This document shows, in pieces, positions 9,341 through 24,779 of a stretch of 46,440 nt of DNA. Each line of letters begins with the position of its first letter. Position 1 is the first letter of the stretch. The stretch comes from Bdellovibrionales bacterium (lineage in GTDB: Bacteria > Bdellovibrionota > Bdellovibrionia > Bdellovibrionales > UBA1609), in the NCBI GenBank assembly GCA_023299885.1, contig JALZUS010000020.1, forward strand, positions 1 to 46,440, written 5' to 3'. The notes beneath the pieces are model-generated. The model was not told where the DNA came from and did no database searches. It saw only the letters and a list, made by a program, of their open reading frames with translations. Made by a program: the position numbers and the translations under genes.

Positions 9341-11649
9341 TACTTATCACCACTTGCTTTTTTAATTGCTGGTGATGGCCTTTTTAGAGTTGGCTTTTTT
9401 AGCCCTTCTTTTTTAATTTGTGGCCTACTAATACCAGTAACCTTACTTTTCACGCCCACTTCAGGTTTTTTTACTGAACCTATAGGCTTTTTATCAACTT
9501 TTTTATCTGGCGTAGAAGAGGTCGTCATAAATAAATTTCTTGGTATATTTATTCCTCGCCTCTCAAATTTTTCTATAAATGTTGGGATAAGACCCATCGC
9601 CTGAAACTGACCTATGATTTTTCTATTCTTATCAAAGCCTTCTTCTTTAAATCTAAAAATTTCTTGTAAAGTTACTGTCTCACCCTGCATGCCAACAACC
9701 TCAGTAATACTTTTAATTTTTCTTGATCCATCGCTAAGTCGACCAATTTGCACTATTAAATGAACAGCACCAGCTACTTGTTCTCTGATAGCTTTTGCAG
9801 GTAAATCCATACCGGCCATCATACATAAAGTTTCTAGCCTAGAAATACCCTCGCGAGGTGTATTAGCATGGACTGTTGTCATAGATCCATCATGACCCGT
9901 ATTCATCGCAGAAAGCATATCTAAAGCTGCACCATCACGACACTCACCAACGATGATTCTATCTGGCCTCATACGTAATGAATTTTTAATAAGGTCACGA
10001 ATACTTACAGCACCTGTCCCCTCCATATTGGCCGGACGTGTTTCAAGCCTTACAACATGATTCTGTTTTAATTGTAATTCCGCAGCATCTTCTACTGTAA
10101 TAATTCTTTCATTTTCTGGAATAAACCCTGACATCACATTTAAAAGTGTTGTTTTACCAGAGCCTGTACCCCCAGAAATAATTACGTTTAAACCCTGCTC
10201 AACACAAATTTTTAAAAAGTCTGCCATAGGCTGAGTTAAAGAATGAAACCTATCTACATAATCAGAAATAACAATGCGCTCTTCTGGAAATTTTCTTATT
10301 GTTACTGATGGCCCATCAATAGCTAATGGCTCAATAATGGCGTTTACACGACTACCATCTTCTAAACGAGCATCCACATAAGGTGTTTTCTCATCAATAC
10401 GACGACCTAGTGGCGTTACGATTCTTTCAATTACATTTCTAAGCTGCAAGTTAGAGGTAAATGTAATTGGGCTTAAAGTTAACTTACCCGATCTCTCAAC
10501 ATAAATTTGATCATGCCCATTCACCATAACCTCTGTTACTTTTTTATCAGATAGTAAAGCCTCTAATGGCCCTAAACCTAAAGCCTCATCGATGACTTCT
10601 TTAATGATCTGAGCACGCTCATCACGCGAAAGGCCACCCGCCATCCTGTCTACTAACATAGAAACAGTTTGAGTTGTTTTAGACCTTAGCTCAGCCTCTT
10701 TAGAAGCATCACCCTTAGTACTTGTCATATCTTTTTTAAGGTCCATCTCTTTAATAAGCTCTGAATGTATTTTTAATTTTAATTGATTATTAGTATTTAC
10801 ATCTACCGATGTTGTAGTGGCGCTACCACCTTTATCCGTTAAGGCTATTTTTTGTATTGCAGATTTCTTTAACGGCTTTTTTACACGTGATTTTAAATTT
10901 TGTAACATTCCGCCAGTTAATGTACGGACTAACTTATGATAAGATTGAGTCACTGGTGACTTCGGCTGAGACATCACAAAAGGCATAGACTTTTGAACCG
11001 AACCAAAAACAGTCACATCATCTTGTGGAATGCTGGCAATGACCTGCTTGCGCAAACTTTGAATAATCGCCTGCGAAGAAACACCGTTCTTACTTACTTT
11101 ATTTAAAACCACCTGAACCATATCACCCGGCAATGCCATGCTTGATAATTCGTTAAGGATTTTTCTTGTTTGGTTAATTACTAAAATTTCTGGCGTGGTC
11201 ACAACTAGCACTAAGTGAGCCATCTCTAAATAAGCCGCTTGAACATCCCCAATCTGAGAGCCTAAATCAGCAACAATAAATGGGAAATGCGAAGACAGAT
11301 TTTCAATAGGCGATTTCAGCATTGTTCCTGAAAAATTAAGCTGAGCTGCCTGACCAGTAGATGACCCCAAGTAATGGAATCCTGATGCATGCGGTACTAA
11401 AAACTGCTCTAGGTTTTTTTGAGTAATAACTGCTGAACCAGTAACGATATCATTTAAAGTTTTTGTAGGGCGCAATCCTGTAATAATATTTTGGTCACCA
11501 CAACTATTTTGATCTAAGTCGATAAGTAAAGACCTCTGCTTAAGCTCTTTAGTAATTGCAGTTACTAAGTTAGCAGAAAGCACACTTTTACCTACGCCGC
11601 CTTTGCCGCCAATAATTGCAATTAAGTTTGATTGTGGATTTAAACTCAT
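9340..11649 (-). CDS. tadA: Fusion of TadZ/CpaE-like MinD ATPase with TadA/CpaF secretion ATPase
   Basis: The 769-residue product carries two ATPases that are usually separate. Residues 1 to about 250 form a MinD/ParA-type domain with the deviant Walker A GGKGGVGKS (14-22) and LIDLDQ (42-47); there is no receiver domain as in CpaE. After a linker, residues 290 to about 715 form TadA/CpaF, with Walker A GGTGSGKT (493-500), the RPDRIIVGECRDG box (561-573) and the His-box TTVHANTPREG. The tail is rich in Lys and Pro. In Tad systems TadZ places the machine in the cell and TadA powers pilus assembly, so the fusion would join localisation to motor in one chain. Confidence 0.93.
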   Translation of the reverse strand: MSLNPQSNLIAIIGGKGGVGKSVLSANLVTAITKELKQRSLLIDLDQNSCGDQNIITGLRPTKTLNDIVTGSAVITQKNLEQFLVPHASGFHYLGSSTGQAAQLNFSGTMLKSPIENLSSHFPFIVADLGSQIGDVQAAYLEMAHLVLVVTTPEILVINQTRKILNELSSMALPGDMVQVVLNKVSKNGVSSQAIIQSLRKQVIASIPQDDVTVFGSVQKSMPFVMSQPKSPVTQSYHKLVRTLTGGMLQNLKSRVKKPLKKSAIQKIALTDKGGSATTTSVDVNTNNQLKLKIHSELIKEMDLKKDMTSTKGDASKEAELRSKTTQTVSMLVDRMAGGLSRDERAQIIKEVIDEALGLGPLEALLSDKKVTEVMVNGHDQIYVERSGKLTLSPITFTSNLQLRNVIERIVTPLGRRIDEKTPYVDARLEDGSRVNAIIEPLAIDGPSVTIRKFPEERIVISDYVDRFHSLTQPMADFLKICVEQGLNVIISGGTGSGKTTLLNVMSGFIPENERIITVEDAAELQLKQNHVVRLETRPANMEGTGAVSIRDLIKNSLRMRPDRIIVGECRDGAALDMLSAMNTGHDGSMTTVHANTPREGISRLETLCMMAGMDLPAKAIREQVAGAVHLIVQIGRLSDGSRKIKSITEVVGMQGETVTLQEIFRFKEEGFDKNRKIIGQFQAMGLIPTFIEKFERRGINIPRNLFMTTSSTPDKKVDKKPIGSVKKPEVGVKSKVTGISRPQIKKEGLKKPTLKRPSPAIKKASGDK

Positions 11650-22448: not shown

Positions 22449-23162
22449 ATGCTTAAACTTGCCATAGAAACAACAACTAATTTTGGATCTTTAAGCCTTG
22501 TTGAAAATGATAAGATTATCGATACTGTAAGTTGGAGCAAAGCTAAATCTCATAGCCAAGTTATTACTAGTAATTTCCTAGAGCTACTCGCTCAAACAGA
22601 AAAAAACAAAGATGATTTGAAAGAACTTTTTATTGATATTGGCCCTGGCAGCTTTACTGGTAATAGAATTGGCCTTAATTTTTGCGCGGCCATAAGCTAT
22701 GGCCTTAGCATACCTATTCAAACAAAAAACAGCCTAGAAATACTTGCAGCTCAACTTATTAAAAATGAACCCAATAAAAATATAATCTGCATGCAAAATG
22801 CTTTTAACCAAAAAATTTACACTGCCACCTATAAAATTGAAAATAACCAACTCCAAGAAGTAACTGCCCCAATGGTCTGCTCCCCAACAAGCCTAGACAT
22901 ACAGTCTCATAGCTATGCTTTAGGCAATGGCTTTGACCTCTATAAAGCACTCATTCCCAAAAATAGTATGACATTTTTATCTAGCTTTAAGGGCTGTGAT
23001 CACCACCCTAAGTCTAAAGATTTAGCTCACCTATGCTTAAATCAAAGCTCAGGAAAAATAGCATGGAATCAGCTAGAACCCCTTTACTTAAAAGCCTCAG
23101 AAGCCGAAGAGAAACTTAAGAGGGGCGAACTAAAAAAGGCTCTTTCAGGGCAGTACTCTTAA
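22449..23162 (+). CDS. tsaB: tRNA threonylcarbamoyladenosine biosynthesis protein TsaB
   Basis: TsaB is the non-catalytic ASKHA partner of TsaD in making t6A37 on tRNAs that read ANN codons. The 237-residue product begins LAIETTTNFGSLSL and has the diagnostic DIGPGSFTGNRIGLNF block. No ribosome-binding site is obvious. It is in the same reading frame as the MinD-like ATPase that follows, separated by its TAA stop and 45 bases. Confidence 0.93.
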   Translation: MLKLAIETTTNFGSLSLVENDKIIDTVSWSKAKSHSQVITSNFLELLAQTEKNKDDLKELFIDIGPGSFTGNRIGLNFCAAISYGLSIPIQTKNSLEILAAQLIKNEPNKNIICMQNAFNQKIYTATYKIENNQLQEVTAPMVCSPTSLDIQSHSYALGNGFDLYKALIPKNSMTFLSSFKGCDHHPKSKDLAHLCLNQSSGKIAWNQLEPLYLKASEAEEKLKRGELKKALSGQYS

Positions 23163-23207
23163 TCATTACCGCCCTATACAAATGCTACTAGTATCAAGGG
23201 GCTTAGA

Positions 23208-24161
23208 ATTTTTAATTTAACAAAAAAGATTTTTGATAAAAAAATAAAAGCCAAAACAGCCAAAGTAATTGCTGTTGGTGGCGGCAAAGGTGGCGTTGGC
23301 AAATCTTTTTTAAGCGTTAACTTATCTTTAGCTTTAAGCCATAGCCAAAAGAAAATACTTGTTGTTGATTTAGATCTAGGCGCACCCAACACTCATACCC
23401 TTTTAGGCTCAAATATACCCAAAAAAGGAATTACAGACTTACTTGAATCCCCAAAAATAAGCTTAGATTCAGTTGTCGAGAAGACTCAACATAAAAATAT
23501 ATTTTTACTTGGAGTTGGTCGAGAAAATGATGATCTTAATGAGATATCCAAAAAGAAGTTCGATCAATTACTTTTTAAAATACTAAGCTATGATGCTGAC
23601 TATATTGTATTAGACCTGGGAGCCGGTACAGGTAACGCCTACTTAAAAGCATTTACTGAAGCTGATTATCAAATTGTTGTTACCACGCCCGAAAGTTCAG
23701 GTGTAGAAAACTCTTATAGCTTTATTAGAAAAGCTTTTTTTCACGCCATAGAGCAAGAGCAAGAAGAACTCGGCCTCAAACTGGTAATAAAAAATATTTT
23801 AAAACAAAATAAAAGTATTTTCCCTCAGAAACTCATATCTGAACTTAAAGAGCTAGAACCGCATAAAGCCAATGCTTTATGCGTAAAACTAGAGTCTCTC
23901 AACCCCCTACTCGTTTTAAATCAAGGTAGAACCAAAAGTGATGTCGAAATAGCCAAAGGCATTGAAAATGTCTGCAAGAGATTTTTAGGCATTAATGTGA
24001 CTTACTATGGGTTTATCCAATATGAAAATACTGTCTGGCAATCACTGAGGCGCCGCAAGCCCCATTATATAGATTGCCCCTCAAGTATTTCAAATGGGGA
24101 AATTGCAAAGATTGCAAAAAAAATCCTTAGTGAACAAAGCCAAAAACTTATGGTAGGCTAA
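23208..24161 (+). CDS. MinD/ParA-like P-loop ATPase with apparent ATT start
   Basis: The frame from the tsaB stop to 24161 is open and encodes a full MinD-type ATPase: deviant Walker A GGKGGVGKS (25-33 from the proposed start), VVDLDLGAPNTH, YIVLDLGAGTG and a final region with VTYYGFIQYENTVW. It resembles the FlhG/MinD group. No ATG, GTG or TTG occurs in frame ahead of the P-loop. The best start is ATT at 23208, with AAGGGG six bases upstream, giving 317 residues. Other readings are stop read-through from tsaB or a frameshift from a 12-codon ORF at 23182. It precedes, by 6 bp, a J-domain/HTH protein that may be its partner. A role in placing a polar structure is inference. Confidence 0.85.
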   Translation: MFNLTKKIFDKKIKAKTAKVIAVGGGKGGVGKSFLSVNLSLALSHSQKKILVVDLDLGAPNTHTLLGSNIPKKGITDLLESPKISLDSVVEKTQHKNIFLLGVGRENDDLNEISKKKFDQLLFKILSYDADYIVLDLGAGTGNAYLKAFTEADYQIVVTTPESSGVENSYSFIRKAFFHAIEQEQEELGLKLVIKNILKQNKSIFPQKLISELKELEPHKANALCVKLESLNPLLVLNQGRTKSDVEIAKGIENVCKRFLGINVTYYGFIQYENTVWQSLRRRKPHYIDCPSSISNGEIAKIAKKILSEQSQKLMVG

Positions 24162-24167
24162 ATCACA

Positions 24168-24779
24168 ATGAATAAAAGTCTTATAGATAAAACATATTAT
24201 GAAATTCTTGATGTTGTGCCATCTGCAAGTCTTGCTGATGTCGAGAAGGCGTATAAAAAAGCAAAAGAGACTTACTCTCCTAGCAGCCCAGCTTTATACT
24301 CTGTATTTACGCCACATGAGGCCAAAGAGCTGGCTCGCCTCATTGAAGACGCTTATTCAGTTTTAATTAACCCTCAGACAAGACAACAATATGATACTCG
24401 TATAAATGCTAGGGCTGATTTAAACCCAGTAAAAACTAAAGCTAAAAATGAGCCTCCAATTAGGCTAAATAACGATTACCTTAATTACGAAAAAGACGCT
24501 TCTTTTGAGGAGACTATAAAAAATACCGAAGAATTTAATGGTTCATTTTTAAAAAAAATACGTGAATATAAAAATGTAAGCATTCCAATAATCTCTGAAA
24601 AAAGTCGCATCAGCAAAACCTACATAAAAGCTATTGAAGACGATAACTACGACAAGCTACCAGCAAGTGTTTTTGTGCGCGGCTTTGTAGACCAATACGC
24701 TAAGCTCTTAAAACTTGATAGTAAAAAAATCTCTACATATTATGTCAACAAAGTGAAGGAACATAGAGGTGAAGAATAA
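24168..24779 (+). CDS. J-domain-like plus RodZ-type HTH protein
   Basis: The 203-residue product joins an N-terminal DnaJ-like domain (residues 7-85, YYEILDVVPSASLADVEKAYKKA, ending in RQQYDTRI) to a C-terminal helix-turn-helix of the RodZ/HTH_25 kind (about 125-195, with ISKTYIKAIEDDNYDKLPASV). The HPD motif that J-domains need to stimulate Hsp70 is absent; the loop reads YSPSSPA. There is no membrane segment, unlike RodZ. It follows the MinD-like gene by 6 bp and its end overlaps rluD by 11 bases. Function is unknown; it may be an adaptor. Confidence 0.78.
   Translation: MNKSLIDKTYYEILDVVPSASLADVEKAYKKAKETYSPSSPALYSVFTPHEAKELARLIEDAYSVLINPQTRQQYDTRINARADLNPVKTKAKNEPPIRLNNDYLNYEKDASFEETIKNTEEFNGSFLKKIREYKNVSIPIISEKSRISKTYIKAIEDDNYDKLPASVFVRGFVDQYAKLLKLDSKKISTYYVNKVKEHRGEE

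Follow-up and report, generated by a model that had tools for sequence, protein, structure and literature searches.

An ATT codon as the probable start of a MinD/FlhG-type ATPase gene downstream of tsaB in a Bdellovibrionales genome

The window analysed here is a stretch of 46,440 nucleotides, contig C20 of the Bdellovibrionales genome G000. It carries a gene for a MinD/FlhG-type ATPase in which no ATG, GTG or TTG precedes the P-loop in frame, and from its sequence we judge that translation probably begins at an ATT codon at position 23208. ATT is the best reading on account of the strength and spacing of the Shine–Dalgarno (SD) sequence, the position at which relatives start, a habit of weak starts in the gene family and the presence in the same genome of other genes that appear to start at AUU, AUC or AUA. 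AUU starts are already known (infC, pcnB) and the ATPase is most likely a new case within this small class. The features of the region are as follows.

22449–23162, plus strand: tsaB, the upstream gene, an open reading frame ending in TAA (TIGR03725, 126 bits, over the curated cut-off).
23182–23220, plus strand: a 12-codon out-of-frame open reading frame, present in the sequence and lacking an SD (+1.9 kcal/mol).
23196–23201, plus strand: AAGGGG, the SD match (duplex −6.8 kcal/mol, spacing 5 in duplex measure).
23208–23210, plus strand: ATT, the most likely start codon, the only SD-backed candidate in frame and positioned as in relatives.
23208–24161, plus strand: predicted coding sequence of the MinD/FlhG-type ATPase, 317 amino acids plus stop (PF10609/PF13614; FlhG/FleN best among PDB sequences; alignment of 28 relatives).
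23283–23306, plus strand: deviant Walker A motif GKGGVGKS, from the translation (invariant alignment columns G29, K30, G31, G32, G34 and K35).
24168–24779, plus strand: DnaJ + HTH_25 (RodZ-like) gene with an ATG start, the conserved downstream partner (PF13413 and PF00226).

The ATPase frame is open from 23163 to 24161, a length of 332 codons, directly after the tsaB TAA (23160–23162) and in the frame of tsaB. Translation and a codon scan bear out the preliminary description on both the shared frame and its uninterrupted course to 24161 with no standard start before the P-loop. The first standard start codon is GTG 23997, at codon 279, which leaves 278 codons free of any; the sole ATG is codon 330. 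The genome is a metagenome-assembled genome (MAG) of 1.84 Mb in 86 contigs, 91.8% complete, in which 1342 coding open reading frames were called; one 66-kb contig and six small contigs read as N. When these frames were ranked by the coding signal ahead of their first standard start, the ATPase came out on top by far, with 59 bits, and the runners-up that have a known domain and lack an explanation such as a frameshift reached 24 and 17 bits. Eight other genes of the genome contain start-free stretches longer than that of the ATPase. We therefore gave up treating a shortage of internal start codons as a signal of its own; the anomaly lies in the absent start and not in a low methionine content.

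Start candidates were scored by the energy of the duplex with the anti-SD sequence. Six bases separate AAGGGG from ATT 23208, as the preliminary description had noted, and none of the other near-cognate codons in frame, ATC 23193, ATT 23229 and ATA 23244, has an SD of comparable duplex energy. An SD as good as that of ATT 23208 is found at 312 of 1244 gene starts in the genome (25%) compared with 37 of 1230 internal ATT codons (3%). The ATPase thus combines two features by which a natural AUU start may be recognized, namely a conserved coding sequence with no standard start ahead of it and an SD at the proper spacing before the ATT. From ATT 23208 to the glycines of the P-loop there are 24 codons, and relatives of the same family mostly start 22–33 codons before these residues. 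In strength of SD, spacing and agreement with the relatives, ATT 23208 is the best start available.

In almost all relatives from the order the gene directly follows tsaB. Among 25 relatives of the same family, 13 lack an ATG in frame ahead of the P-loop, so that GTG or TTG must serve there, and these cases are spread over several genera. The downstream DnaJ/HTH_25 gene at these loci is without an ATG in only one of 21 (P = 0.0009). GTG and TTG together account for 17% of starts in G000, and set against this rate the 13 of 25 gives P = 8e-5; both P values are optimistic because the sequences compared are related. The ATT of G000 may thus be seen as the extreme of the weak-start habit of this gene. 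All of the relatives compared nonetheless use a standard start, which counts against the ATT reading.

The bases at 23208–23210 come from this one MAG, and scans of genome contigs for a close relative in which the ATT might be checked found none. It is conceivable, although unlikely, that the ATT stems from a mistake in assembly or consensus calling, or from a strain variant. The true codon at 23208 would then be ATG, GTG or TTG, or one base would have been lost from the stretch between ATG 23182 and the gene; a missing base, for example in the T run 23209–23213, would give MLLVSRGLEFFNLTKK. A MAG in 86 contigs, and a base read from a single genome with no congener for comparison, leave room for such an error, and by reading of the sequence one inserted base joins ATG 23182 to the ATPase frame. 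That ATG, however, lacks an SD, and the good one at 23196 would have no role. The same property also recurs in several other genes of G000, and the near-absence of premature stops throughout the genome points to a low error rate.

Recent loss of the start, with the gene on its way to becoming a pseudogene, appears less probable still. The genome is small and the gene is absent altogether from some small-genome relatives, which would suit decay, but 332 codons are open with conserved motifs and a good SD is still present. By our estimate a gene of 330 codons offers more than 100 stop-making changes and few from ATG to a near-cognate codon, about 30 to 1, so that if several starts had been lost, some hundred broken genes or more should be present. 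When G000 was searched for premature stops in the same frame, nine candidates emerged, the ATPase itself included, and on inspection most are not real breaks. This near-absence argues against both an error-rich assembly and general decay; a single event, error or loss, at this one site is possible.

The in-frame position of tsaB and the overlap of the 12-codon open reading frame with the start region raise a further alternative, in which ribosomes read through the tsaB TAA to make a TsaB–ATPase fusion or shift by −1 out of the small frame. We regard this as very improbable. In relatives tsaB and the ATPase gene lie in different frames, often with a four-base stop/start overlap, so that the fusion envisaged in the preliminary description is not conserved and read-through is unsupported. 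The small frame, which had been put forward as a leader, exists, but since no SD precedes its ATG neither a leader function nor frameshifting from it is supported. No canonical slippery heptamer was seen by eye (GAA TTT TTA), and we rejected a programmed −1 frameshift for this reason. Folding of the start region is unremarkable (z −0.96), which disfavours recoding and led us to reject a regulatory hairpin at the start of the ATPase gene.

Initiation at ATT 23208 is given weight by other genes from the same ranking in which a conserved part precedes any standard start; these include LolC/E, rnhB, NUDIX and secreted proteins.

C27:76258–77490, plus strand: LolC/E-type permease (L147), ATT at 76312 behind GGTGGAGG, SD near −9.4.
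C31:26925–27602, minus strand: rnhB (L149), no standard start before the catalytic core.
C53:5527–5982, minus strand: NUDIX gene, no standard start at the natural N-terminus, CTG a possible start.
C25:25211–26098, minus strand: DUF429-like gene, no standard start at the natural N-terminus, ATT a possible start.
C85:8247–9479, plus strand: Fic-like secreted protein, ATC after TGGAGGT (−10.5), directly before the signal peptide.
C32:17398–18837, minus strand: TolC-like protein, ATT after CAGGAG, before the signal peptide.
C58:5043–6665, plus strand: PhoX-like Tat protein, a probable case with an apparent ATA start behind an SD, before the Tat peptide.
C65:40929–41723, minus strand: apparent ATT start behind an SD, immediately ahead of a signal or Tat peptide.
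C66:10647–11270, minus strand: apparent ATT start behind an SD.

For LolC/E all 29 aligned relatives have ATG or GTG within three codons of the ATT position of G000, where the first standard codon lies 35 codons past the ATT, inside the first membrane segment. The RNase HII domain of rnhB runs from residue 45 of the open reading frame and no standard codon occurs until residue 101; the alignments of many relatives begin at about residue 24–31, and an ATT stands at residue 26, one base past the rplS stop. In the NUDIX gene, whose domain begins at residue 20, no standard codon occurs until residue 61; the CTG is at residue 5. An outer-membrane-like protein has a probable ATT start. The appearance of prfB in the ranking is explained by its known +1 frameshift. 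Three further candidates were discarded: L266, a second ATPase thought to be startless, has an ATG 96 codons before its P-loop; pgpA is ambiguous, with homology beginning near its TTG; and secF has a normal ATG. Separately, an M24-peptidase-like fragment (C55:9475–9846, minus strand) is preceded by a short open reading frame in another frame and looks frameshifted or degenerate.

With several genes alike, G000 may accept rare start codons unusually readily. It is a real possibility, if on balance a somewhat doubtful one, that start selection is generally relaxed, with AUU, AUC, AUA and perhaps CUG serving in roughly 0.5–1% or more of genes, possibly by way of the initiation factors. Codon-blind genome-wide start censuses detected no excess of near-cognates, which tells against ATT starts, but their power was low, GTG itself not being recovered, and we dropped them as too weak. 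As a control we used 392 genes at the loci of relatives in three low-GC bins. A strong coding signal before any standard start occurs in one of these 392 and in 29 of 1341 genes of G000 (P = 0.007), although the 29 overstate the true number since many are weak scores with a normal ATG. The class of near-cognates backed by an SD has no member among the 392 and five among the 1341, three of which we accepted; alone this difference is not significant. A count at N-terminal hydrophobic segments gave near-cognates with an SD in six of 19, while the figure for other codons is 16 of 244 (P = 0.002); we give it little weight because only two of the six were accepted as cases. A generally permissive genome would provide a natural setting for testing how initiation factors govern the stringency of start-codon choice.

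The ATPase is of the deviant-Walker type, ParA/AAA_31 in Pfam (PF10609/PF13614), with an intact P-loop and conserved motifs across the 28 aligned relatives. Its best solved relatives among PDB sequences are 4rz2/4rz3 (E = 2e-19 for 4rz2) and FleN, that is, FlhG/FleN. We rejected an identity as MinD, as the score of 86.2 bits against the TIGR01968 equivalog is far under the curated cut-off of 212.9. We also rejected an flhF-linked FlhG: the neighbours are tsaB and DnaJ/HTH_25, a search of G000 for FlhF returned nothing above the cut-off, and relatives with FlhF have a separate FlhG-like gene beside flhF. The DnaJ/HTH_25 gene follows the ATPase gene in 72 of 80 fetched loci (L210–L289) from Bdellovibrionota, Myxococcota, Nitrospirota, SAR324 and others. 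Our guess is that the ATPase has a spatially organizing role together with this RodZ-like partner. Three ParA proteins of B. bacteriovorus have been studied (PMC7186360). The window also contains a second, distantly related P-loop ATPase at 11077–11631 on the minus strand, within a 770-codon frame (E = 1e-10).

We propose that the gene forms part of an operon, tsaB–ATPase–DnaJ/HTH_25, and that its product is functional. The AAGGGG sequence would select ATT 23208 for initiation, and the ordinary initiator tRNA would read AUU as formyl-methionine with low efficiency. Such a yield is probably either tolerated or favoured by selection, given the weak GTG and TTG starts of the same gene in about half of the family. 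Initiation at the ATT, the efficiency of this step and any benefit of low expression are inferred from the sequence. By reading of its sequence the initiator tRNA looks normal, with the C1–A72 mismatch and three G–C pairs. AUU and AUA sites in S. aureus reporters gave about 10% of AUG output at the three sites tested (PMC13009471), and IF3 represses non-standard start codons in E. coli and Streptomyces (PMC5472188). IF3 control of the ATPase start is possible. The IF3 of G000 has other residues in place of E. coli R99, R112 and R147; that these changes relax start-codon choice is speculation.

To our knowledge, few natural AUU, AUC or AUA starts are known. Gene finders skip or truncate genes that use them, and would in this case miss or shorten a whole conserved ATPase. 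The preference for weak starts across the family suggests that it matters to keep the ATPase low relative to the products of its operon partners.

The E. coli infC gene starts with AUU (PMC5472188), as does pcnB (as cited in PMC13009471). The ATPase would resemble them in joining an AUU start to an SD, and low, IF3-sensitive initiation would be expected; it is a different gene, and feedback of the infC type is not evident since infC in G000 starts with TTG (C71, open reading frame about 23484–24215, plus strand). In S. aureus cvfC1 starts with AUU and ccpN, citZ and infC with AUA (PMC13009471). Strong SD motifs mark the non-standard starts in both organisms, but those of S. aureus were measured and those of G000 only inferred; four sites are reported in the former, and in the latter the roughly 1340 genes include about six firm candidates and several probable ones. 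Streptomyces sigR has a GTC start that is repressed by IF3 (PMC5472188). As with sigR, a non-standard start would hold one member of a co-transcribed pair low, although the GTC is conserved genus-wide and experimentally shown, whereas the ATT of the ATPase is known from a single genome. Finally, the protein shares the deviant-Walker P-loop with FlhG/FleN and MinD but differs from them in lacking linkage to flhF and in scoring below the MinD cut-off; its linkage is to tsaB and the DnaJ/HTH_25 gene.
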